Shown here one piece after another: positions 51,033-64,000 of a stretch of 64,000 nt of DNA (position 1 is its first letter; the number at the start of each line of letters is the position of its first letter). The position numbers and the translations under genes were made by a program. A model generated the notes under the pieces. The model was not told the origin of the DNA and did no database searches. It was given only the letters and a program-made list of their open reading frames with translations. Source of the stretch: Buttiauxella massiliensis. Lineage in GTDB: Bacteria; Pseudomonadota; Gammaproteobacteria; Enterobacterales; Enterobacteriaceae. The DNA lies in NCBI RefSeq assembly GCF_902500225.1, contig NZ_LR722655.1, positions 124,001 to 188,000 of the forward strand, given 5' to 3'.

Positions 51033-54000
51033 TTACGCCTTCTCAATGTTGACCAGAAACGCCTTGTACTCTGGCGTTTGCGAGTTAGCGTCACCGACGG
51101 ACGGCGTCAGCGTGTTGGCGAGATAGCCTTTACGCGCCGTACCTTCAAAGCCCCAGTGCAGCGGAATACCCACGGTTTCCACTTCCTGCCCGCCAGCGTT
51201 CAGCGTTTGCAGGCGCTGCGTGACCACCGCAACGGCGCGAATAAACCCGCGTTTGCTGCTGACTTTCACGTGGTCGCCGTTGGCAATACCTTTGCTTTTC
51301 GCCAGTTTCTCGCTGATTTCCACAAACTGCTCGGGCTGCGCAATCGCGTTAAGCCGCGAGTGTTTAGTCCAGGTGTGGAAGTGCTCGGTCAGGCGATACG
51401 TGGTGCCGACATACGGGAACTCGTGACGTTTGCCCATGCGTTTAGCGTCAGCTTCATACAGGCGAGCCGCCGGGTTCGAGACCACATTCGGGTGCAGCGG
51501 GTTGGTACCCAGCGGCGTTTCAAACGGCTCGTAATGTTCAGGGAATGGGCCTTCTGCCATTTTGTCGATGGCAAACAGGCGGCCTAAACCTTCTGGCTGC
51601 ATGATAAACGGCCCCACGCCGCTGCTCGGTGCGGCCGTGTTGTAGTCCGGGATATCGTTCCCGACCCACTTCGCGCCATTCCACTGAATCAACATACGTT
51701 TCGGGTCCCACGGTTTGCCCTGCGGATCGGCAGACGCGCGGTTGTAGATAATGCGGCGGTTGAGTGGCCACGCCCAGGCCCAGCCCAGCGTGTTGCCCAG
51801 CCCGGACGGATCGGCGTTATCGCGGTTCGCCATCTGGTTGCCTTTCGCCGTCCAGCTCCCGGCGTAAATCCAGCAGGCAGACGCGGTGGTGCCGTCGTCA
51901 CGCAGCAGCGCAAACGAGTCCAGAAGCTGACCTTTCTTCGCCAGCAAATTCCCAGCTGGATCATAGAGATCTTCCAGCGCGTAGCCGTTGTTCTCTTTGG
52001 CGACCTCTTCGGATTCAGGGCTGTCTGGCAGCTCATAATGCCAGCCCATTTTCAGCAATGGCTCGGCACCTTTACCACCTTCGCTGCGATAAAGCTCGCG
52101 GATCTGGTGGTAAATCCCAGCCAGAATTTCGCCGTCGTTACGCGCTTCTCCCGGTGCATCTGCCCCTTTCCAGTGCCACTGTAACCAGCGCCCGGAGTTG
52201 GCAATTGAACCGTCTTCCTCGGCAAAGCAGGTGGACGGCAGGCGGAACACTTCGGTCTGAATCGCCGCCGGGTTCACGTCGTTCATCTCGCCGTGGTTTT
52301 GCCAGAAGTTAGACGTTTCAGTAACCAGCGGGTCGATAATCACCAGATATTTCAGCTTGCTAAGGCTTGCGACAATTTTGTTTTTGTCCGGGAAAGAGGC
52401 GACCGGGTTAAAGCCCTGGCAGATGTAGCCCGTGACTTTGTTGCGGTCCATCATGTCGAAGTACTTCAGCACGTCGTAGGCCTGGTCCCACTTCGGCAGC
52501 CAGTCAAAGCCCCAGTTGTTATCTTTACGCGCATGATCGCCATAGAACGCTTTCATCAGGCTGACGAAGAACTTCGGATAGTTGCCCCAATAGTTCACCT
52601 GGCCCGGCAGCGTGGCTTTCGGCGTGTTTGCCGTCAGATAAGTTTGCAGGTCGGTTTGCTTCTCAGAAGGCAGCGTCAGATAACCCGGCAGGCTGGTGGA
52701 CAGCAGGCCCAGATCGGTCAGACCCTGAATGTTGGAGTGCCCGCGCAAGGCATTTACGCCGCCGCCCGCCATGCCCATATTGCCGAGCAGCAACTGGATC
52801 ATCGCCATGGTGCGAATGTTCTGCGCGCCAACGGTGTGTTGCGTCCAGCCCAACGCGTACAAGAACGTGGTGGTGCGGTCGGCGGCGCTGGTGGAAGCTA
52901 GCACTTCGCACACTTTCAGGAAATCAGCCTGCGGCGTACCGCAAATATGTTCGACCACTTCCGGCGTATAACGGGAAACGTGCTCTTTCAGCAGGTTCCA
53001 CACGCAGCGCGGATCGGTCAACGTTTCGTCGCGTTTCGCATAGCCGTTTTCATCGAACTGATAGTTCCAGCTGGTTTTGTCGTACTGGCGTTTGGCTTCG
53101 TCATAGCCGCTAAACAGGCCGTCATCAAAGCTAAAATCATCGCGCACCAGCAGGCTGGCGTTGGTGTAATGCTTAACGTATTCGGCGTTGATTTTGTTAT
53201 TGGAAATCAGGTACAGCAGAACACCCGACAGGAAAGTAATGTCGGTGCCGGAGCGGATTGGCGCGTAAATATCCGCCACCGAAGCGGTGCGGGTAAAGCG
53301 CGGATCGACCACGATCAGCGTGGCGTCGTTGTTGTTTTTGGCTTCCATCGCCCAGCGGAAACCCACCGGATGCGCTTCAGCGGCGTTGCCGCCCATCACC
53401 ATCACCACGTTGGCGTTTTTGATATCAACCCAGTGGTTGGTCATCGCACCGCGACCAAATGTTGGAGCAAGACTTGCTACCGTTGGTCCGTGTCAGACGC
53501 GCGCCTGGTTATCTACCGCTAACATGCCCAGCGATCGGACAAATTTCTGCGTCAGCATCCCGGTTTCGTTGCTGGCCGCCGAGGCACATAACATGCCGGT
53601 GGAGAGCCAGCGGTTGACCGTGACATTTTGCTCATTCTTCTCAACGAAATTGGCATCGCGGTCATCTTTCATCAGGCGAGAAATACGCGCGAACGCATCT
53701 TCCCAACTGATGCGCTGCCATTTATCGGAGCCTGGCGCGCGGTATTCCGGGTAACGCAGGCGGCTTTCGCTGTGGATATAATCCAGCAGGCCAGCGCCTT
53801 TCGGGCATAACGCCCCACGGTTCACCGGATGATCCGGATCGCCTTCAATATGGAAAATACTGGATTTAGCGTTTTTCGAGCCATCGCCCAGGCTGTACAT
53901 CAACAAGCCACAGCCTACGGAGCAGTATGTACAGGTATTGCGGGTTTCTTTGGCACGCAAAAGCTTAAAGTTGCGCACCTCGGCAAGCGCCGCTTTGGGA

Positions 54001-54080
54001 GAAAATCCCAGAACTGCGGCGGTCGTCCCTGCCATCCCGCCGGCACAGATCTTGAAAAATTTTCTGCGACTGACGTCCAT
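51033..54080 (-). CDS. fdnG: Formate dehydrogenase-N, selenocysteine-containing catalytic subunit
   Basis: Molybdopterin, selenocysteine-dependent formate oxidase in the periplasm, partner of nitrate reductase in anaerobic respiration. 1015 residues, as in E. coli. Tat signal DVSRRKFFK followed by a hydrophobic core, then the [4Fe-4S] motif [11 protein letters not shown]. An in-frame UGA at 53493-53495 encodes residue 196 (NQARV[11 protein letters not shown]), so the gene appears split into two open frames but is intact. A SelB hairpin follows the codon. The rest is full length with no frameshift. Start 54080 follows GAGG. Needs selA/B/C/D elsewhere. Confidence 0.97.
53464..53481 (-). promoter_or_regulatory. 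Bacterial SECIS hairpin in fdnG
   Basis: Located 11 bases after the UGA on the coding strand: GG-T-AGCA / TGCT-CC with apical loop AGTCT and one bulged T. This is the geometry (bulged U, GU in the loop) bound by SelB in fdhF and fdnG mRNA, and it fixes the UGA as selenocysteine. Confidence 0.88.
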
Positions 54081-54142
54081 CGTAACCTCATTGTTATGAC
54101 GTATGAATGGCGGCGAAAATAGCAACTGAGGCAGAGCGGATA

Positions 54143-55292: not shown

Positions 55293-56222
55293 TCAATCCC
55301 TGGACAACAAGTCCCCATAAATCTCTGCCAGCAACCCGCCCGGCGCAAACTGCTTTTTAATCCAACGGGTTACCTGGCCGGTGGCGGCATGCTGGGTTGC
55401 TAACAGCATGCGTGAATCCTGGCGCGGGTTGTTTATCTGGCGTGTCACCAGCAGGCCGCTATCCTGAGCCTCGCGCACCATATAGCTCGGTAAAAAACCA
55501 ACGCCTTCTCCCAGAATCTGGCACTGGCACTTGGTGTTGAAGTCTGGCACCAGAATCGCTTCTTGCCCATGCAGCAGCCATCCCACCTTTTTATTCAGTG
55601 TTGATGCGGTGTCTTCCACCATGATGTTGGGGTAAAGGCGCAACTGGCTTTCAGAAATTGGCTCCGGCATAAATGCCAGCGGGTGGGTTGGGGCGATAGC
55701 AAACTGCCAGTGAATCGCGCCGATTTCGGTGTAATCAATCCCACCACCGTCGAGCAATGTATCTGGCGCACCAATCGCAATATTTGCCTGGTTATTGATA
55801 ATTGAGTCCCACACCCCGTTGTACACCTCTGTCGTGATAGTAATCAGGCAGGTAGGGAACTGCTTTTTGAGTATTTGCAGCAGCTTTGCGGTGTGGCGCG
55901 GGGTGTAAAGCAGTTGGTTGATACAGATGCGGACCTTCACCTCAATTCCTTGCGAGATGGTATCGACACCGCGTTTTATGGCGTGGAAATCGTTAAGCAG
56001 TTCGGTTGCTTTACGATAGAAATAGAAGCCGGATTCAGTCAGTTCGATACTGCGGGTATTGCGCACAAACAGCACCACATCAAGGTACGTCTCGATTCTT
56101 TTGATGGTGTAGCTAACGGCAGAAGTGGTGATCCCCAGCTCGACAGCAGCCTTACTAAAACTTGAAAGCCGCGCCGTGGTAGTGAAGGCAAGTAGGTTCT
56201 CTTCGGTAAAAATGGAATTCAT
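55293..56222 (-). CDS. yahB: LysR-family regulator YahB (AllS-like)
   Basis: 309 residues (E. coli YahB 310). Winged HTH at 5-65 (LLAFTTTARLSSFSKAAVELGITTSAVSYTIKRIETYLDVVLFVRNTRSIELTESG) and a type-2 periplasmic-binding effector domain. The effector domain resembles AllS, the allantoin-pathway activator (GVWDSI, NIAIG, LVPDFNTK, GVGFLP). The start at 56222 has GGGAG 7 bases upstream; the frame is open upstream through a REP unit to 56273. Divergent from yahDEFG, whose control it most likely exerts, as in the yah region of E. coli. Inducer unknown. Confidence 0.9.
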   Translation of the reverse strand: MNSIFTEENLLAFTTTARLSSFSKAAVELGITTSAVSYTIKRIETYLDVVLFVRNTRSIELTESGFYFYRKATELLNDFHAIKRGVDTISQGIEVKVRICINQLLYTPRHTAKLLQILKKQFPTCLITITTEVYNGVWDSIINNQANIAIGAPDTLLDGGGIDYTEIGAIHWQFAIAPTHPLAFMPEPISESQLRLYPNIMVEDTASTLNKKVGWLLHGQEAILVPDFNTKCQCQILGEGVGFLPSYMVREAQDSGLLVTRQINNPRQDSRMLLATQHAATGQVTRWIKKQFAPGGLLAEIYGDLLSRD

Positions 56223-56233
56223 GCGCCACTCCC

Positions 56234-56264
56234 GTAGATCGGATAAGCGCAGTGTCATCCGACA
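56234..56264. repeat. REP-like palindrome in the yahB leader
   Basis: TCGGAT / ATCCGA arms around AAGCGCAGTGTC, 12 bases upstream of the yahB start codon on the minus strand. Confidence 0.6.
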
Positions 56265-56599: not shown

Positions 56600-56616
56600 A
56601 GTATGGGAGTATGGAT

Positions 56617-57222
56617 ATGTCTCAGAAAGAACTTATTGCAGAATTTCTAAGTGCAGCAGAGCTTGGCAACCTGGAAAATTTAAAACAATGCCTTAGCGAT
56701 GGCGTGGATATTAACGCCACCAACCGCCAGGGCCGCACCGCCATTACCCTCGCCAGCCTGCATAAAAAATATGACTGTGTGGAATATTTAATTGCCGCCG
56801 GTGCCGATATTAATCAACAAGACCAAACCTGTTTTAACCCCTTCTTACTGAGTTGTCTTAATAACGACCTGACATTATTACGTCTGGTTTTACCGGCAAA
56901 CCCAGATTTAAATTGCTTATCCCGTTTCGGTGGCGTGGGAATTACGCCCGCCAGTGAAAAAGGTCACGTTGAAATTGTCCGTGAATTAGTTACACGCACC
57001 GACATTAACGTTAATCACACCAACTTTGTGGGCTGGACGCCATTGCTCGAAGCCATCGTATTAAACGACGGTGGGGCGAAACAGCAAGAGATCGTGAAAC
57101 TGCTGCTGGATCACGGTGCCAACCCGCACATGACTGACAAATACGGTAAATCGCCACTCGAATTGGCGCGTGAAAAAGGCTATCACGAGATTGCCGAACT
57201 GCTGGTAAATGCCGGCGCGTAA
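56617..57222 (+). CDS. yahD: Ankyrin-repeat protein YahD
   Basis: 201 residues, same as E. coli YahD. Soluble, made of about five ankyrin repeats, e.g. GNLENLKQCLSDGVDINATNRQGRTAITLASLHKKYDCVEYLIAAGADIN, WTPLLEAIVLNDGGAKQQEIVKLLLDHGANPHMTDKYGKSPLELAREKGYHEIAELLVNAGA. No signal peptide or catalytic motif, so probably a scaffold or inhibitor for the enzymes encoded next. ATG 56617 has GGGAG 7 bases upstream; ATG 56611 is too close to it. First gene of the yah operon. Confidence 0.9.
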   Translation: MSQKELIAEFLSAAELGNLENLKQCLSDGVDINATNRQGRTAITLASLHKKYDCVEYLIAAGADINQQDQTCFNPFLLSCLNNDLTLLRLVLPANPDLNCLSRFGGVGITPASEKGHVEIVRELVTRTDINVNHTNFVGWTPLLEAIVLNDGGAKQQEIVKLLLDHGANPHMTDKYGKSPLELAREKGYHEIAELLVNAGA

Positions 57223-57239
57223 AACACAGGAGATGCACT

Positions 57240-58160
57240 ATCGCCGGATATCTTCAGCGGCAGTGCCTTTTTGCACAAACGGCAGATAGCGCTTTTTTCA
57301 CCCCGGATTTATACGGTGATACAACAGGTTATGTTGAGCAGGTGTTTGACCGGGCGGTGAATATTCACCTCCCTGAAAGGCAACAGATCTTCACTTTGCT
57401 CAGTACCGAATGTGATAACGCACCAAATAGCTGTCGTTTAGCAGTAGAGCATTGTCAGAACCACTTTAAGCCTGGTGAACGGGTAAGTTTTCACAGTAAC
57501 GGCATTGATATTGGCACAGATAAACGTATCGATTTCTCGCGCTGTACACGCTGGCAACCTGAAGCGCTTTTTCTAAGCCACACACGAATAAAACAGATTG
57601 ATTGGCAACATCTTGCGCAAATGACACAGGCCAGTGTCATAAAAAGTTCGTCACTATTTTATTTTCATGGCGATAATATTTTCTACCAGGAAATGAGCCG
57701 CCTGCTGCAATTACATCGAAAGCAGCTTATATCAGCGCTAAATACAGGGAATTGCGCTGGGATTGAAAAAGGAATAAGTGGATTGCTGGGTTTAGGTATT
57801 GGACTAACACCATCCGGTGATGATTATCTGGCGGGCCTGAGTGCTGTTTTATTTATTATCGGGCATCCAGCGCGGAAATATAGAGATATTTTTATTGTTG
57901 TACTGGAAAGAGAAAAACATAAAACCACGCAGCTAAGCGCTATTACGCTGCGTGAAGCTATTGACCAACGTTATCGTGAAACTATTTATGGTTTTATTTA
58001 TCAGGTGGTCAATGGTGATTTAGAAAATATTCAGCAGTCTATTAACGAAATTAAAAAAATAGGATCGAGTTCAGGATGCGACATGCTTTGCGGCATGGCG
58101 GATGCCTTCGCTTTGACCAAAATTAACGGAGGAAATTATGTCGACCAGGATTGTAATTAA
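57240..58160 (+). CDS. yahE: DUF2877 protein YahE (AllH/YlbF paralogue)
   Basis: About 306 residues. Family signature GISGLLGLGIGLTPSGDDYLAGLSAV near residue 190 and GSSSGCDMLCGMADA at the C-terminus. Its paralogue YlbF/AllH is a subunit of E. coli oxamate carbamoyltransferase. The frame reads IAGYLQRQCLFAQTADSAFF... back to 57240 in full family style, yet has no ATG, GTG or TTG there. Only ATC at 57240 sits at ideal distance (7) from AGGAG; the first ordinary start is GTG 57342, which would lose 34 conserved residues. I give 57240 as most likely extent; a non-standard start or a sequencing/indel change are both possible. It overlaps yahF by 23 bases. It looks richer in A/T than its neighbours. 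Confidence 0.82.
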   Translation: MAGYLQRQCLFAQTADSAFFTPDLYGDTTGYVEQVFDRAVNIHLPERQQIFTLLSTECDNAPNSCRLAVEHCQNHFKPGERVSFHSNGIDIGTDKRIDFSRCTRWQPEALFLSHTRIKQIDWQHLAQMTQASVIKSSSLFYFHGDNIFYQEMSRLLQLHRKQLISALNTGNCAGIEKGISGLLGLGIGLTPSGDDYLAGLSAVLFIIGHPARKYRDIFIVVLEREKHKTTQLSAITLREAIDQRYRETIYGFIYQVVNGDLENIQQSINEIKKIGSSSGCDMLCGMADAFALTKINGGNYVDQDCN

Positions 58161-59688
58161 AAAGAACACCTATTTTGATTCTGTCTCACTGATGTCTATT
58201 TCAACCAAAGCCAACCAGCTTGACGGTGTGGAACAGGCGTTTGTCGCGATGGCGACCGAGATGAACAAAGGGGTTTTAAAAAACCTCGGTCTGTTAAACG
58301 ACGAACTCGAACAGGCCAAAAATGGCGACCTGATGATTGTGATTAAAGGCGCGAGCGATACGGCGAACGACGCCACTCTTGAAGCCATTGAAGGGCTCTT
58401 CACCCGCAAAGACAGCGGCAACTCACGCCACGAATCTCGTTACGCAACACTTTCCAGCGCGCATCAAAATATCCCTGAAAGTAACCTCGTGGTGATTTCG
58501 GTCAATGGCGCGTTTGCTGCCCGTGAAGCACGTCAGGCGCTGGAAAACGACCTCAACGTGATGCTCTTTTCCGACAACGTTTCCCTTGATGACGAACTGG
58601 CACTCAAGCAGCTTGCACACAGAAAAGGGCTGCTGATGATGGGACCGGACTGCGGTACTGCGATTATCAATGGTGCAGCGCTGTGCTTTGGCAACGCGGT
58701 ACGCCGTGGCTCAATTGGCATTATTGGTGCGTCCGGTACTGGCAGCCAGGAATTGAGCGTGCGTATCCATGAATTTGGCGGTGGGATTTCACAACTCATC
58801 GGCACCGGAGGGCGTGATTTAAGCGAGAAAATCGGCGGTATCATGATGCTCGATGCAATCCAGATGCTGGAAGATGACGCGCAAACTGAAGTGATTGTTC
58901 TGGTTTCCAAACCACCTGCTGAAACGGTAGCCCGTAAAGTGCTGGAGAGGGCCAAAGCTTGCCGCAAACCGGTGGTGGTTTGCTTCCTTGGTACTAAAGA
59001 AGCACGTGAGGATGAAGCAGGTTTGCAGTTTGCTCGTGCGACGAAAGAGGCCGCGCTGAAAGCCGTTCTGCTGACTGGAATCAAAAGAGAGTCGCTGGAC
59101 TTACACCCGCTTAACTGGCCGCTGATTGAAGAAATCCGTGCGCGCATGAAACCTGAGCAAAAGTACATTCGTGCGCTGTTCTGCGGCGGCACGCTGTGTG
59201 ACGAAGCGATGTTTGCAGCACTGGAAAAGTACCCGGACGTCTACAGCAATATTCAACCCAACCCGGAATATCGCCTCAAAGACGTGAATATCAGCGTTGC
59301 GCACACCTTCCTCGATTTCGGCGACGATGATTTCACCAACGGCAAACCACACCCGATGATTGACCCAACCAACCGTATTAGCCGCCTGTTGCAGGAAGCA
59401 CGTGACCCGGAAGTGGGCGTGATTGTGATGGACTTCGTCTTGGGCTTTGGCTCCCATGAAGATCCGGTCGGCGTGATGCTTGATGCCATCAAAGAAGCGA
59501 AAGCCATTGCTGCCCGCGAAGAGCGTAACCTGGAAATCCTGGGCTATGTGTTGGGCACCGATTTGGACACGCCATCGCTTGAAAAGCAGTGCCAGATGCT
59601 GACGGATGCGGGCGTTATCTGGGCAAGTAGCAGCACCAACACCGGTTTGCTTGCACGTGAGTTTGTTTGCAAGGAGAAAGCACAATGA
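58138..59688 (+). CDS. yahF: FdrA-family CoA-ligase-like protein YahF (AllF paralogue)
   Basis: 516 residues (E. coli YahF 515). SucD-like CoA-binding fold: ESNLVVISVNGAFAAREARQALEND, LLMMGPDCGTAIINGAALCFGNAVRRGSIGIIGASGTGSQELSVRIHEFGGGISQLIGTGGRDL and a C-terminal ligase-like domain (SHEDPVGVMLDAIKEA). Its paralogue FdrA/AllF is the large subunit of oxamate carbamoyltransferase, so this is expected to be a carbamoyl-transfer enzyme rather than an acyl-CoA ligase. Ends with ATGA overlap into yahG. Confidence 0.92.
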   Translation: MSTRIVIKKNTYFDSVSLMSISTKANQLDGVEQAFVAMATEMNKGVLKNLGLLNDELEQAKNGDLMIVIKGASDTANDATLEAIEGLFTRKDSGNSRHESRYATLSSAHQNIPESNLVVISVNGAFAAREARQALENDLNVMLFSDNVSLDDELALKQLAHRKGLLMMGPDCGTAIINGAALCFGNAVRRGSIGIIGASGTGSQELSVRIHEFGGGISQLIGTGGRDLSEKIGGIMMLDAIQMLEDDAQTEVIVLVSKPPAETVARKVLERAKACRKPVVVCFLGTKEAREDEAGLQFARATKEAALKAVLLTGIKRESLDLHPLNWPLIEEIRARMKPEQKYIRALFCGGTLCDEAMFAALEKYPDVYSNIQPNPEYRLKDVNISVAHTFLDFGDDDFTNGKPHPMIDPTNRISRLLQEARDPEVGVIVMDFVLGFGSHEDPVGVMLDAIKEAKAIAAREERNLEILGYVLGTDLDTPSLEKQCQMLTDAGVIWASSSTNTGLLAREFVCKEKAQ

Positions 59689-61097
59689 GTTTATTCAACC
59701 AACCGCTAAATGTGATTAACGTCGGCATTGCAATGTTCAGCGATGATTTGAAAAAGCAGAGCGTTCCTGTCACTCAACTGGACTGGACGCCACCGGGGCA
59801 GGGTAATTTAGCTGTCGTTAACGCGCTCGATTCCATCGTCGCTCCGGCACTTGCCGAAAAAGTAGCAGCAGCAAACAAACTGGCCGTTGAGCGCATCATC
59901 CAGTCACAGCCTGTTTTGGTGGGTTACGACCAGGCGATTAATGTGGTTCCGGGCATGACGCGCAACACCATTCTTCACGCCGGGCCGCCGGTTGCCTGGG
60001 AAAATATGTGCGGCGCGATGAAAGGTGCGGTCACCGGGGCACTGGTGTTTGAAGGGCTGGCGGCGAATATTGATGAGGCCGCGCAGCTGGCAGCATCAGG
60101 CGAAATAATCTTCTCGCCATGCCATGAACACGACTGCGTAGGGTCTATGGCGGGTGTGACTTCTGCCTCGATGTTTATGCATATCGTCGAGAACAAAACC
60201 TACGGTAACCGCGCCTATACCAACCTCAGCGAACAGATGGCGAAGATCTTGCGCATGGGCGCTAACGACCAGAGCGTGATTGACCGCCTTATCTGGATGC
60301 GTGATGTGCTCGGCCCAATGTTGCGTGATGCGATGAAACTGGCGGGTGAAATCGACCTGCGTTTGATGCTGGCGCAAGCACTGCATATGGGCGACGAGTG
60401 CCACAACCGCAACAACGCGGGCACCACATTGCTGATTCAGGCGCTCACACCGTGGATTATTCAGACTAATTTCACCGTCGCACAGCAGAAAGAAGTGTTC
60501 GATTTTGTCGCCAGCAGCGACTACTTCTCCGGCCCAACGTGGATGGCGATGTGCAAAGCGGCAATGGACGCGGCGCACGGTATCGAATACAGCACTGTGG
60601 TTACTACTATGGCGCGTAACGGCGTGGAGTTTGGCTTGCGCGTTAGCGGCCTACCGGGGCAGTGGTTCACCGGCCCGGCACAGCAAGTGATTGGCCCGAT
60701 GTTTGCGGGTTACAAACCGGCAGATTCTGGTCTCGATATTGGTGATAGCGCGATCACGGAAACCTACGGCATCGGCGGATTTGCAATGGCAACGGCTCCG
60801 GCGATTGTCGCGCTGGTGGGTGGCACCGTGGATGAAGCTATCGATTTCTCGCGCCAGATGCGCGAAATCACGCTGGGCGAAAACCCGAACGTCACCATTC
60901 CATTGCTGTCGTTTATGGGCATCCCAACCGCCATTGATATTACGCGTGTGGGCAACAGCGGCATTTTGCCGGTGATCAACACAGCCATTGCCCACAAAGA
61001 TGCGGGCATCGGCATGATTGGCGCCGGGATTGTCCATCCGCCGTTTGAATGTTTTGAGAAGGCTCTGCTCGCCTTTGGTGAGCGTTACTCTTTCTGA
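59685..61097 (+). CDS. yahG: DUF1116 protein YahG (AllG/YlbE paralogue)
   Basis: 470 residues (E. coli YahG 472). Conserved blocks PLNVINVGIAMFSDDLKKQ, ATG-Asp-rich region IGYDQAINVVPGM, CHEHDCVGSMAGVTSASMFMH with possible metal-binding His/Cys, AQALHMGDECHNRNNAGTTLL and SDYFSGPTWMAMCKAAMDAA. Partner of YahE and YahF by analogy with AllFGH. ATG 59685 overlaps the yahF stop; AAGGAG lies upstream. No transmembrane segment. Confidence 0.92.
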   Translation: MSLFNQPLNVINVGIAMFSDDLKKQSVPVTQLDWTPPGQGNLAVVNALDSIVAPALAEKVAAANKLAVERIIQSQPVLVGYDQAINVVPGMTRNTILHAGPPVAWENMCGAMKGAVTGALVFEGLAANIDEAAQLAASGEIIFSPCHEHDCVGSMAGVTSASMFMHIVENKTYGNRAYTNLSEQMAKILRMGANDQSVIDRLIWMRDVLGPMLRDAMKLAGEIDLRLMLAQALHMGDECHNRNNAGTTLLIQALTPWIIQTNFTVAQQKEVFDFVASSDYFSGPTWMAMCKAAMDAAHGIEYSTVVTTMARNGVEFGLRVSGLPGQWFTGPAQQVIGPMFAGYKPADSGLDIGDSAITETYGIGGFAMATAPAIVALVGGTVDEAIDFSRQMREITLGENPNVTIPLLSFMGIPTAIDITRVGNSGILPVINTAIAHKDAGIGMIGAGIVHPPFECFEKALLAFGERYSF

Positions 61098-61108
61098 GGG
61101 ATACCCCG

Positions 61109-62647
61109 ATGACAAACGTTAAGCTTGAGTGGAAACGCGGTGACTGGGCGGCATATTTCGGGTTGATGACCAACAACCTGACTAACTTGCTGACCATGAT
61201 GGGGTTACTCATTTTTGTGGTGGGTATTCCGACTGAGATTGTTTACGGGCGCATTGCGCCAGCCTTCGGGCTGGCGGTGCTGGTAGCGAGCATTTGCTAC
61301 GCCTGGTTTGGTTTGCAGCTGGCAAAAGAGACAGGGCGCAAAGATGTGACCGCACTGCCTTCCGGGCCAAGTGCGCCGTCCATCTTTACCGTGACGTTTT
61401 TGGTATTGATGCCGGTCTATCAGCAAACTGGCGATGCCGAATTTGCGATTCAGATTGGTCTGGTGTGGTGTTTTGTTGAAGCGATGATTCTGGTGGGCGG
61501 TTCGTTCCTTGGCGAAACCATCCGCAAGATGATCCCGCGTACCGTTCTGCTGTCGTGTTTGTCGGGATTAGGTTTGTTGCTGTTGGCGATGAACCCGATG
61601 CTTCAGGCATTTGAAGCGCCGACGGTTTCCTTCATCGTGCTGCTGCTTATCTTCATCAACTGGTTTGGCAAAAAGCCGATTTTTGCCCGTATTCCTACTG
61701 GCTTATTACTGTTGGTTGCCGGTACTGCGCTGGCGTGGGTTTCCGGCCTGCAAAGCCCGGAGGCCATCAAAGCCTCGATGTCCTCATTCGGCTTTAACCC
61801 GCCATCGATTCATGTTGATAGCTTCCTGCAAGGCTTGCCGCACGCGCTGCCTTACCTGGCATCGGCAGTTCCGTTGGGGCTGGCGAACTACATTTTCGAC
61901 CTGGAAAACATCGAAAGTGCCCACGCAGCGGGTGACGAATACAACACGCGTAAAGTGATGCTGACCAACGGCCTGGCTTCAACGCTCGGTTGCCTGATGG
62001 GGAACCCGTTCCCGGTCACGGTGTACGTTGGCCATGCGGGCTGGAAAGCGATGGGCGCGAGTATCGGTTACACGCTGGCGTCAGGTGTGACGATGTTTAT
62101 CGTGCCGTTGTTTGGCCTTGGGGCGTTCATGCTCGCCATAATTCCGATGACCGCGATTGTGCCGATTCTGGTGTTTATCGGTGTGGTGACGGCAAACCAG
62201 GTGGTGCGAGAGACACCGAAAATAGAGGTGCCGGTTATCTTCATCTGCTTGTTCCCGTGGATAGCTAACTGGGCACTGACCATGGTGAATAGCGTGATGG
62301 CCGCAGCGGGCACAACGGCTGCAAAAATCGGCCCGGAAGCGCTGGCGCATAAAGGGGTGTTTTACCAGGGACTGGTGCATTTGGGTAACGGTGCACCGCT
62401 CGCCAGTATGTTGTGGGGCTGTGTTGCAATCTTCGCGATTATCAACAAACCGTTACGTGGTGCAGTTGCGGCGGTTGTCGGTGCGTTGCTGGCACTGTTT
62501 GGCGTGATTCATGCGCCGATGGTCGGCTTTGCGCAGGGCAGTTCGCTGATGTTTGTCACTGCGTATTTGATGATGGGCGCGATGTTTGTGGTGAAGCACG
62601 TGCTCGACCGCCGTGAAGCGGCTTCTGAGGTTGTGACCTCGGTATAA
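61109..62647 (+). CDS. Purine/uracil-type permease inserted in the yah operon
   Basis: 512 residues, 12-14 membrane helices, a purine/xanthine-uracil (NCS2-AzgA-like) permease by pattern: GDWAAYFGLMTNNLTNLLTMMGLLIF, GRKDVTALPSGPSAPSIFTVTFLVLMPVY, GETIRKMIPRTVLLSCLSGLGLLLL, and GCLMGNPFPVTVYVGHAGWKAMGAS. It lies 11 bases after yahG and belongs to the same transcript. In E. coli K-12 the yah cluster has no such gene here. It is the best clue to the substrate, probably a cyclic ureide or base-like compound. The substrate itself is unknown. Confidence 0.85.
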   Translation: MTNVKLEWKRGDWAAYFGLMTNNLTNLLTMMGLLIFVVGIPTEIVYGRIAPAFGLAVLVASICYAWFGLQLAKETGRKDVTALPSGPSAPSIFTVTFLVLMPVYQQTGDAEFAIQIGLVWCFVEAMILVGGSFLGETIRKMIPRTVLLSCLSGLGLLLLAMNPMLQAFEAPTVSFIVLLLIFINWFGKKPIFARIPTGLLLLVAGTALAWVSGLQSPEAIKASMSSFGFNPPSIHVDSFLQGLPHALPYLASAVPLGLANYIFDLENIESAHAAGDEYNTRKVMLTNGLASTLGCLMGNPFPVTVYVGHAGWKAMGASIGYTLASGVTMFIVPLFGLGAFMLAIIPMTAIVPILVFIGVVTANQVVRETPKIEVPVIFICLFPWIANWALTMVNSVMAAAGTTAAKIGPEALAHKGVFYQGLVHLGNGAPLASMLWGCVAIFAIINKPLRGAVAAVVGALLALFGVIHAPMVGFAQGSSLMFVTAYLMMGAMFVVKHVLDRREAASEVVTSV

Positions 62648-62652
62648 AAAAA

Positions 62653-62722
62653 TGGCGGATGACGCGTACTTATCGGCCCTACAGTTTTGTAGGGTGGATA
62701 AGCCTCAGGCGGCATCCACCGG
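62653..62722. repeat. Composite REP-like palindromes before yahI
   Basis: GGTGGAT / ATCCACC (62693-62720) with a neighbouring CCCTACA / TGTAGGG palindrome and a partial GGAT unit. Same composite form as at 22481-22556. In E. coli the space between yahG and yahI is also repeat-rich. Confidence 0.65.
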
Positions 62723-62747
62723 CCTTTGTCCTACAAGGATAAAAACA

Positions 62748-63698
62748 ATGAAACAGCTCGTGGTTGTGGCAATTGGCGGCAACAGCATCATCAAAGATAA
62801 CGCCAGCCAGTCGGTTGAACATCAGCAAGTCGCGGTTAAAGAAGTGGCCCAGACGGTGCTGGAAATGCTTTCGTCGGATTACGACATCGTGCTGACGCAC
62901 GGCAACGGCCCACAGGTGGGGCTGGATCTGCGCCGAGCGGAAATCGCCCATGAGAAAGAGGGATTGCCGCTCACGCCACTGGCTAACTGTGTGGCAGATA
63001 CCCAGGGCGGCATTGGCTATCTGATTCAGCAGGCGCTGAATAACCAGTTGGGTAAACACGGGGACAAAAAAGCGGTCACCGTGATTACGCAGGTAGAAGT
63101 AGATAAAAACGACCCTAATTTCACCCATCCGACCAAGCCGATCGGCGCTTTCTTTAGCGAACAACAGTGCGAGGCGCTAAAAGTGGCTCACCCGGACTGG
63201 CAGTTTGTAGAAGATTCCGGGCGGGGTTACCGTCGGGTTGTGGCGTCTCCAGAGCCAAAACGGATTGTTGAAGCGGATGCCATCAGCGCGCTTATCAAAC
63301 AAGGCTTTGTGGTGATTGGCGCGGGCGGCGGCGGTATTCCGGTGATTCGCAGCGAACAGGGCGATTACCAGAGCGTGGATGCGGTTATCGATAAAGACCT
63401 GTCTACCGCGCTGCTGGCTCGCGAAGTGAACGCTGACATTCTGGTAATCACCACTGGCGTGGAGAAAGTGTGTATTCACTTTGGCAAACCAGAACAACGA
63501 GCACTCGATGAAGTCACGGTTGAACAGATGGTGCATTTCAGCGAAGAAGGTCATTTCCCTCCGGGCAGCATGCTGCCAAAAATCACTGCCAGCCTCGCGT
63601 TCCTGCGCAATGGCGGCAAACGCGTGATTATCACCACACCTGAAAAATTACCTGCAGCCCTGCGTGGCGAGACGGGCACTCATATTGTTAATACTTAA
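62748..63698 (+). CDS. yahI: Carbamate kinase YahI
   Basis: 316 residues (E. coli YahI 316). Converts carbamoyl phosphate and ADP to ATP and carbamate, the energy step after a carbamoyltransferase. Kinase motifs AIGGNSI, LTHGNGPQVGLDLRRAE, PTKPIGAFFS, GRGYRRVVASPEPK, IGAGGGGIPV, AVIDKDLSTALLA and GSMLPKI are all intact. The ATG at 62748 is chosen because AAGGA lies 8 bases upstream; the frame is open further upstream across a REP unit. Next is yahJ, 15 bases on. Confidence 0.93.
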   Translation: MKQLVVVAIGGNSIIKDNASQSVEHQQVAVKEVAQTVLEMLSSDYDIVLTHGNGPQVGLDLRRAEIAHEKEGLPLTPLANCVADTQGGIGYLIQQALNNQLGKHGDKKAVTVITQVEVDKNDPNFTHPTKPIGAFFSEQQCEALKVAHPDWQFVEDSGRGYRRVVASPEPKRIVEADAISALIKQGFVVIGAGGGGIPVIRSEQGDYQSVDAVIDKDLSTALLAREVNADILVITTGVEKVCIHFGKPEQRALDEVTVEQMVHFSEEGHFPPGSMLPKITASLAFLRNGGKRVIITTPEKLPAALRGETGTHIVNT

Positions 63699-63713
63699 GA
63701 GTGGGAGAACTCA

Positions 63714-64000
63714 ATGAATAATGCAGAAAAAAGCCGCCGTGAATTTTTAAGCGGTGGCGGCAAAGTGGCTGCTGCCTGCGCACTCTTTGGCGCGACTGGC
63801 TCAATGGCGTATGCTGCGAAACCAGCCTCCCTTACCTGTGAGACGGACAATCGCATGAGCGCCATTAAAGAATCGCATTACTACCTCGACAACGTACTGC
63901 TGGAGGCGGGTTTTAGCCGCGACGGGCAGACTATTGTTGGCACGCAAACCGAGCTAAAAACGCTGGAAATTAAAGACGGCAAAATTGCGGCACTGCTCGC
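63714..64000 (+). CDS. yahJ: Tat-exported amidohydrolase YahJ, N-terminal part
   Basis: Only the first 95 residues are in the window. The N-terminus has a twin-arginine signal (KSRREFLSGG) with a hydrophobic stretch ending AYAAKP, then HYYLDNVLLEAGFSRDGQTI and ELKTLEIKDGKIAALL, the small beta-domain that opens a cytosine-deaminase-like amidohydrolase. E. coli YahJ (460 residues) has the same start. Its metal site lies beyond the window. A periplasmic hydrolase in a pathway with a permease suggests it acts on the compound outside the inner membrane. Confidence 0.85.
   Translation, partial: MNNAEKSRREFLSGGGKVAAACALFGATGSMAYAAKPASLTCETDNRMSAIKESHYYLDNVLLEAGFSRDGQTIVGTQTELKTLEIKDGKIAALL

Follow-up and report, generated by a model that had tools for sequence, protein, structure and literature searches.

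Phosphorolysis that yields carbamoyl phosphate for carbamate kinase is familiar from the arginine and agmatine deiminase systems, in which the transferase belongs to the ATCase/OTCase superfamily and is unrelated to the proteins considered here. The AllFGH complex of Escherichia coli is likewise a proven carbamoyltransferase that is coupled to carbamate kinase, and deletion of any one of allF, allG and allH interrupts oxamate formation (PMC11326118; papers given by PMC number are cited from excerpts of their text). A ureidoglycine carbamoyltransferase of another superfamily has also been proposed (PMC4016543). Here we describe a paralogous set of genes, the yah operon, that lies at the end of a 64,000-nucleotide stretch of DNA from Buttiauxella massiliensis (contig NZ_LR722655.1, positions 124001–188000; this whole stretch is called the window), whose source genome of 4.88 Mb is rated 100% complete. 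The initial annotation of this DNA stated that the E. coli yah genes have no assigned pathway, and indeed none was found in the open-licence literature; neither the oxamate carbamoyltransferase paper (PMC11326118) nor the paper on ybcF mentions ‘yah’.

We propose that the operon probably encodes a phosphorolytic ureide-salvage pathway in which an imported N-carbamoyl amide is the carbamoyl donor. Specifically, a dedicated permease would import a compound of the form R-CO-NH-CO-NH2, which could be an acyl-urea or else a polyureide (biuret, for example, or something closely analogous to it). Together, YahE, YahF and YahG would use inorganic phosphate to take up the terminal carbamoyl group of this compound, so that carbamoyl phosphate and an amide (or urea) are formed. 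YahI would then use carbamoyl phosphate and ADP to form ATP and carbamate, and carbamate would decompose to ammonia and CO2. YahJ may serve as an optional front end for hydrolysis of a precursor of the amidine or aryl-amine type, and YahD may be a dedicated assembly or regulatory partner. Because of the homology to AllFGH, carbamoyl transfer between an amide and phosphate is the expected chemistry of YahEFG, and we consider it quite likely that some ureide is the donor; that this donor is a biuret-like polyureide, our leading candidate, is a tentative suggestion. Features newly recognized for yah are the YahD partner, an exchange involving the permease, YahC and repeat elements, and a YahJ export motif that is confined to the enteric group.

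A conserved operon with three transferase subunits and a kinase

In the window, a LysR-type regulator gene on the reverse strand is followed on the forward strand by yahD, yahE, yahF, yahG, the permease gene, yahI and yahJ. Every gene is present as first listed, and the reported overlaps of 23 and 4 bases were both measured as such. The same gene order occurs in three congeners (L051, L053 and L054), and an order that includes the permease is found in 18 of 23 loci of what we call the enteric group (22 Enterobacterales loci and one locus, L063, from the Orbaceae, order Orbales); given this recurrence, the order is not due to chance. The E. coli yahBCDEFG–yahIJ genes are orthologous, with identities of 69–70% for YahD, 47% for YahE, 80–81% for YahF, 88% for YahG, 83% for YahI and 77% for YahJ.

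The AllH, AllF and AllG subunit families are encoded side by side, each with a match above the model cut-off. The product of yahE (57342–58160, forward strand, GTG start) matches PF11392 (DUF2877, now named AllH) in its C-terminal half (96.7 bits, cut-off 25), that of yahF (58138–59688, forward strand) matches NCBIfam PRK06091 (492 bits, cut-off 433) and that of yahG (59685–61097, forward strand) matches PF06545 (DUF1116, now named AllG; 302 bits, cut-off 27). On this sequence evidence, YahE, YahF and YahG are paralogues of AllH, AllF and AllG, the oxamate carbamoyltransferase of E. coli. The solved structure nearest to YahF is FdrA (3dmy), and YahG has a close relative in the solved structure 3clq (661 bits across 411 residues).

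The carbamate kinase named in the initial annotation is borne out by a match of YahI to PRK12352 (594 bits, cut-off 266). This match begins at residue 33 of the yahI open reading frame (ORF; 62652–63698, forward strand), and the start is therefore probably at 62748. A scan of named genomes comprises the best 80 of 579 relatives, and so leans to yah. It contains 69 loci with a YahG-clade protein, of which 23 are in the enteric group and 46 are from Bacillota, Actinomycetota or Pseudomonadota outside that group; the remaining 11 loci are more distant. Carbamate kinase is encoded within 8 kb of yahG at 56 of the 69 yah-clade loci (23/23 enteric and 33/46 other).

The NCBIfam name for YahF, ‘acyl-CoA synthetase FdrA’, and its matches to the Pfam models Ligase_CoA and CoA_binding would fit a different role for YahF, that of an acyl-CoA synthetase in an operon whose product is a CoA thioester. 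However, the phospho-histidine loop of the archaeal succinyl-CoA synthetase alpha chain, GHAG, aligns with DEAG in YahF, which puts glutamate in place of the catalytic histidine. The sole histidine conserved in at least 97% of 70 YahF/AllF-family proteins, H405, is far from this loop. YahF thus lacks the phospho-histidine and is not a normal acyl-CoA ligase, and its counterpart AllF works in a carbamoyltransferase (PMC11326118). Judged from these alignments, the acyl-CoA synthetase name is misleading, and we regard formation of a CoA thioester as highly improbable.

YahG and AllG form separate clades

The yah operon resembles the AllFGH–AllK system in having three homologous subunits, a carbamate kinase gene in the operon and a nearby LysR regulator of the AllS kind. 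It differs in its separate YahG clade, ankyrin-repeat partner, dedicated permease and YahJ, and in a source genome in which yahG is the single AllG-family gene found. The absence of allantoinase that was noted for the window holds genome-wide at the family cut-off (best score 23.8 bits versus 357.85, with a model that passes in 2 of 14 control genomes), in a search directed at allantoinase alone.

A tree of 93 rows was constructed from 49 of the 80 scan loci and 44 others, with L003, L034 and L036 omitted as copies or near-copies; the branches of L173 and L056 are very long. YahG proteins form a clade of 46 rows from three phyla with a Shimodaira–Hasegawa-like approximate likelihood ratio test (SH-aLRT) value of 100, and the AllG proteins of allantoin operons form a distant clade of 7 rows, to which YahG does not belong. 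The neighbours of the YahG clade are a pair (L129 and L133) and an 8-row clade, of which five rows are AtzD loci and one is a TrtA-like locus. These labels of front-end enzymes were assigned by us; AtzD labels derive from the family model for L130, from a genome search for L126 and L131, and from BLAST for the remainder, and a xanthine dehydrogenase label is confirmed by Pfam for L179 only. By sequence, the nearest relatives of YahG are carbamoyltransferases encoded beside AtzD or triuret-hydrolase-like genes, and oxamate is not the closest comparison. The parallel first drawn with FdrA, YlbE and YlbF (AllFGH) stands for the three paralogous subunits, with the amendment that the closest relatives of YahG are not AllG.

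This topology bears on the possibility that YahEFG is a second oxamate (oxalurate) carbamoyltransferase that uses oxalurate from outside. The same three families and the same carbamate kinase coupling are used by AllFGH, and a genome that lacks allantoinase could still import oxalurate. Oxamate carbamoyltransferase activity has been reported for Streptococcus faecalis ATCC 11700 (PMC11326118) and two sampled enterococci (L096 and L113) carry yah loci, though their genomes have 2 and 3 AllG-family genes. Against this, YahG and AllG fall into separate, fully supported clades, and there are 14 AllG-specific positions at which YahG agrees with the AtzD/TrtA-linked rows. Moreover, the chromosomal yahEFG genes, which we take to be present in strain MG1655, did not replace AllFGH there, although they may not have been expressed. 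The idea that the allFGH mutants came from a strain without yah was rejected, because their parent is MG1655. Clade, genome context, residues and this failure of chromosomal yah to substitute all argue for a donor other than oxalurate, and we consider a second oxamate enzyme unlikely.

Relatives beside AtzD and triuret hydrolase

AtzD and TrtA are unrelated proteins that both produce carboxybiuret (PMC7948467), and the carbamoyltransferase encoded beside either of them therefore most likely acts on carboxybiuret or biuret. The association with AtzD was assessed in 348 Bacillota genomes, the phylum of Tissierella pigra, in which G060 had been picked because both genes are present. AtzD-family genes occur in 11 of these genomes and an AllG-family gene in 52, with the latter in 10 of the 11 AtzD genomes versus 42 of the 337 others (Fisher p = 2.5e-8, a value that ignores kinship). 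The two genes are at most 7 kb apart on one contig in eight of the 11 genomes, 12 kb apart in one and on separate contigs in one; the AtzD genome G288 has no AllG-family gene. One Bacillota AtzD protein scores 554.6 bits against the NCBIfam cyanuric acid amidohydrolase cut-off of 360.

Clusters in Bacillota that carry an AtzD-family ring-opening amidohydrolase with AllF/G/H-like genes include L126, L130–L132, L135 and L167–L172; a cytosine-deaminase-like amidohydrolase is also encoded at L130, L131 and L170–L172. In two further Bacillota loci, the neighbours of the AllF/G/H-like genes encode a putative cyclase (PF04199; L174) or subunits of the xanthine dehydrogenase type (L179), which hints at additional donors in the AllF/G/H superfamily.

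In Enterobacterales, operons of another AllG-type group (L039, L042, L043, L045, L048, L049 and L050) combine a triuret-hydrolase-like gene with AllH/F/G-like genes, carbamate kinase, and a permease that is CodB-like or of the window type. The TrtA-like gene is present at 7/7 of these loci (six from the family of the window and one from another family), and a free-standing allophanate-hydrolase C-terminal domain is recognized at six. Six of the TrtA-like proteins were checked, and all retain the six residues by which triuret hydrolase is distinguished from biuret hydrolase (PMC7948467), along with the shared Q202; the seventh (L048) is 73% identical to that of L043. Two of these proteins score below the biuret-hydrolase cut-off (267 and 271 of 370), in line with TrtA. 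Elsewhere, L086 and L173 keep none of the seven residues, and L128 and L184 keep four.

In nitrifiers, biuH/trtA lie beside allFGHK, an arrangement that was read as separate biuret and oxalurate use (PMC12625717). We came across no other published case in which biuret or triuret genes lie together with allFGHK, and this is also the one paper in the literature searched that mentions both cyanuric acid hydrolase and a carbamoyltransferase. An E. coli island with RutB-, FdrA-, DUF1116-, YqeA- and CodB-like genes, for which pyrimidine use was proposed (PMC12928451), looks like the Enterobacterales TrtA-type operon, at least as a candidate likeness. The excerpts of PMC9118981 and PMC6557486 show no genomic link to carbamoyl or carbamate genes.

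Weighing the carbamoyl donor

The AtzD- and triuret-hydrolase-linked operons of Bacillota and Enterobacterales include the nearest relatives of YahG and share with yah the same transferase–kinase core, and a permease family is common to yah and some of them (L043, L050 and L184). They differ in carrying an enzyme that makes carboxybiuret, whereas the window operon encodes neither AtzD nor TrtA and has YahD and YahJ.

Several observations count against the proposed pathway. Twelve positions that are common to AllG and the AtzD/TrtA-linked rows are different in YahG, which suggests, at the sequence level, a donor other than oxalurate and (carboxy)biuret; 10 of the 12 adjoin an invariant position, versus 134 of 295 in the background. 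A search of 27 yah-clade genomes detected AtzD in only 2 (3/3 comparison genomes were positive), and the AtzD model PF09663 finds no match in the source genome, in a search in which no control was positive, although the model finds AtzD elsewhere. Within 8 kb, 14 of the 46 non-enteric yah loci have no recognized permease, 14 have no YahD and 13 have no carbamate kinase, with contig ends explaining some of these cases. The permeases of yah and triuret operons are only 39–40% identical. Finally, YahJ appears deaminase-like, and if a ring compound were made, the ring-opening step would be missing. Both the scarcity of AtzD among yah genomes and the 12 positions peculiar to YahG weaken a direct transfer of the AtzD/TrtA substrate to yah, and together they suggest a donor other than carboxybiuret. 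If urea is the other product of the YahEFG reaction, it is probably unused here, because no urease alpha subunit was found in the source genome (the model is positive in 4 of 14 controls).

On the reading that YahEFG splits an imported N-carbamoyl amide by phosphorolysis, E. coli yahB–yahJ gain a concrete, testable function, and the list of candidate substrates is shortened. A broader claim, which we advance with some reserve, would make yah a second phosphorolytic carbamoyltransferase of ancient origin, equipped with an ankyrin partner and a polyureide-type donor of its own. Taken jointly, yah and the relatives linked to AtzD and triuret hydrolase may then reveal ATP-conserving breakdown of cyanuric acid, triuret and related purine-oxidation debris via carbamoyl phosphate, where known routes only hydrolyse the carbamoyl group. 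A route of this kind that captures carbamoyl phosphate from cyanuric acid or triuret was not found in print in the literature searched. The link to AtzD suggests that breakdown of cyanuric acid or triuret supplies some Bacillota with ATP; if true, this would be relevant to fertiliser and herbicide residues and to purine oxidation products in the gut.

A dedicated permease and its exchange for YahC

The permease gene (61109–62647, forward strand) encodes a protein with no Pfam match up to E = 10, including NCS2 (PF00860), and no NCBIfam match. Its predicted structure (pLDDT 82) is matched by Foldseek to SVCT1 (E 3.5e-8, prob 1.00, TM ~0.55), with SLC26, UraA, AZG2 and UapA also listed. As modelled, the permease has the UraA/SLC23–SLC26 fold, which is a 7+7 inverted repeat. 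The original description as ‘purine/uracil-type’ is thus supported by predicted fold, but not by a Pfam match.

That the operon has its own importer, as was claimed from the outset, agrees with the distribution of this protein. Among 60 relatives, the permease occurs in 13 (E up to 1e-10) and is always encoded beside an AllG-family gene, at 11 yah loci and two triuret-hydrolase operons (G013 and G037, which are L043 and L050). An NCS1 permease is present at 12 yah loci, 11 of them in Bacillota; for the two that were checked, allantoin permease is the best model, with scores below its cut-off (467 and 433 of 620).

The 23 enteric yah loci divide into 18 with the permease and 5 with YahC (DUF1097), and none has both or neither. 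Rows of the tree whose loci carry YahC (E. coli, G012, Kluyvera and Raoultella) form one clade (SH-aLRT 97), so this pattern represents one evolutionary swap and not repeated evidence. Our guess is that YahC is a transporter standing in for the lost permease; its predicted structure has a pLDDT of 49 (from 5 sequences, 79–96% identical to the first). In the three E. coli strains that were read, the permease is absent, YahC is encoded upstream, and yahG is separated from yahI by a slot with 2 to 9 matches (both strands counted) resembling repetitive extragenic palindromic (REP) elements. The annotated YahH of E. coli O157:H7 (L034:8106-8402) is a translated array of REP elements, or bacterial interspersed mosaic elements (BIMEs), and hence a misannotation; a ‘hypothetical protein’ of strain GF3-3 (L036:9106-9465) is likewise a translated REP/BIME array. 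Such arrays recur at a median of at least 21 places per E. coli genome. Six further loci of the YahC type are free of REP, and in them the yahI ORF follows yahG after 0 to 127 bases. The operon DNA is not covered to 80% at any place in 5426 E. coli genomes, and 4703 genomes match some part of it.

YahD is a conserved partner

YahD (56611–57222, forward strand; ankyrin repeats, PF12796), which the initial annotation left unexplained, is a steady, conserved partner of the yah system. It is encoded within 8 kb at 22 of 23 enteric loci, 32 of the 46 other yah-clade loci and none of the 11 distant loci, counts that generic ankyrin similarity may slightly inflate. Among the 60 relatives, YahD (at least 73% identity) occurs in 13 genomes, and in 13/13 it is roughly 3 kb from an AllG-family gene. 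A fourteenth match, in G059, has 38% identity and is on a contig other than that of the AllG-like gene of this genome. At some non-enteric loci, the protein counted as YahD is an ankyrin–TPR fusion (L123 by Pfam, with L077, L091 and L093 alike by sequence).

Four operons contain the permease, YahD, YahE, YahF and YahG, with YahI divergent (L107, L111 and L118) or in line (L119), and no deaminase was seen in them. This composition suggests that a compound can serve as the donor in the form in which it is imported.

YahJ as a proposed, optional front end

The window edge cuts yahJ (63714–64000 in the window, forward strand), which was described as encoding the Tat-exported amidohydrolase at the end of the operon; the gene runs on to 65102 and encodes 462 amino acids, and beyond it the next long ORF is on the opposite strand. 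YahJ matches PRK06846 (672.8 bits, cut-off 447), with 6nbo and AtzC as its nearest relatives and cytosine deaminases next. The predicted twin-arginine (Tat) signal is there as described (SRREFL...AYA), and the motif is present in 25/25 YahJ proteins of the enteric group (window, one E. coli and 23 loci). In contrast, it is absent from 12/12 YahJ homologues outside this group, of which L130 and L131 are more distant. Export is therefore probably a late change, with YahJ probably periplasmic in the enteric group. A published list of predicted Tat substrates includes E. coli YahJ, and in a competitive infection assay an extraintestinal E. coli that had lost yahJ was slightly less fit (index 0.70, p 0.022) (PMC7549933).

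One could instead suppose that YahJ opens a cyclic ureide of the hydantoin, parabanate or barbiturate type in the periplasm and that the permease imports the linear product, which would make a complete path with no step missing. The enteric Tat motif fits this scheme, and YahJ keeps H123, H125, H277, H310 and D364, which we take to be metal-site positions. Yet hydantoinase, dihydroorotase and allantoinase models score only roughly 20 bits on YahJ, the best matches being AtzC-like enzymes and cytosine deaminases, and homologues beyond the enteric group lack the motif. YahJ is encoded within 8 kb at only 6 of the 46 non-enteric yah loci, and no ring opening is expected of the guanine-deaminase-like enzyme that eight loci encode. 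Periplasmic ring opening thus seems improbable to us. The originally suggested breakdown of a ureido or cyclic amide compound to carbamoyl phosphate and ATP accordingly retains the carbamoyltransferase homologues, kinase and importer, with the cyclic amide left as a conjecture.

Not every locus encodes a YahJ: many have a guanine-deaminase-like enzyme or lack a front-end enzyme altogether. The eight loci with the guanine-deaminase-like enzyme are all non-enteric; L080 has YahJ too, and the similar gene of L077 lies outside the operon cut-off and was left out of this count.

Regulator and upstream flank

The LysR-type regulator gene (55293–56240, reverse strand, with a probable true start at 56222) faces away from the operon, as first described. 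Its product is 85% identical to E. coli YahB, of which it is the orthologue; AllS is its best NCBIfam match, but at 253 bits this falls below the equivalog cut-off of 372, and the protein is AllS-like without qualifying as AllS.

A formamidase-family gene (PF03069; 54333–55232) adjoins the regulator gene. Its position would allow it to belong to the pathway and to strip ammonia from the amide product, and Neobacillus sp. OS1-33 also has an FmdA-family gene in its yah locus (L083). However, the gene was not seen when the flanks of yah were read in four other Buttiauxella genomes (L051, which equals L057, and L053, L054 and L076), and it occurs at only 1 of the 69 yah-clade loci. On these two counts, formamidase as a pathway member is mostly rejected, and we rate its participation as very doubtful. 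Also in the window, the gene for a formate dehydrogenase alpha subunit (51033–54125, reverse strand) appears as two ORFs split by a stop, which is presumably a selenocysteine codon.

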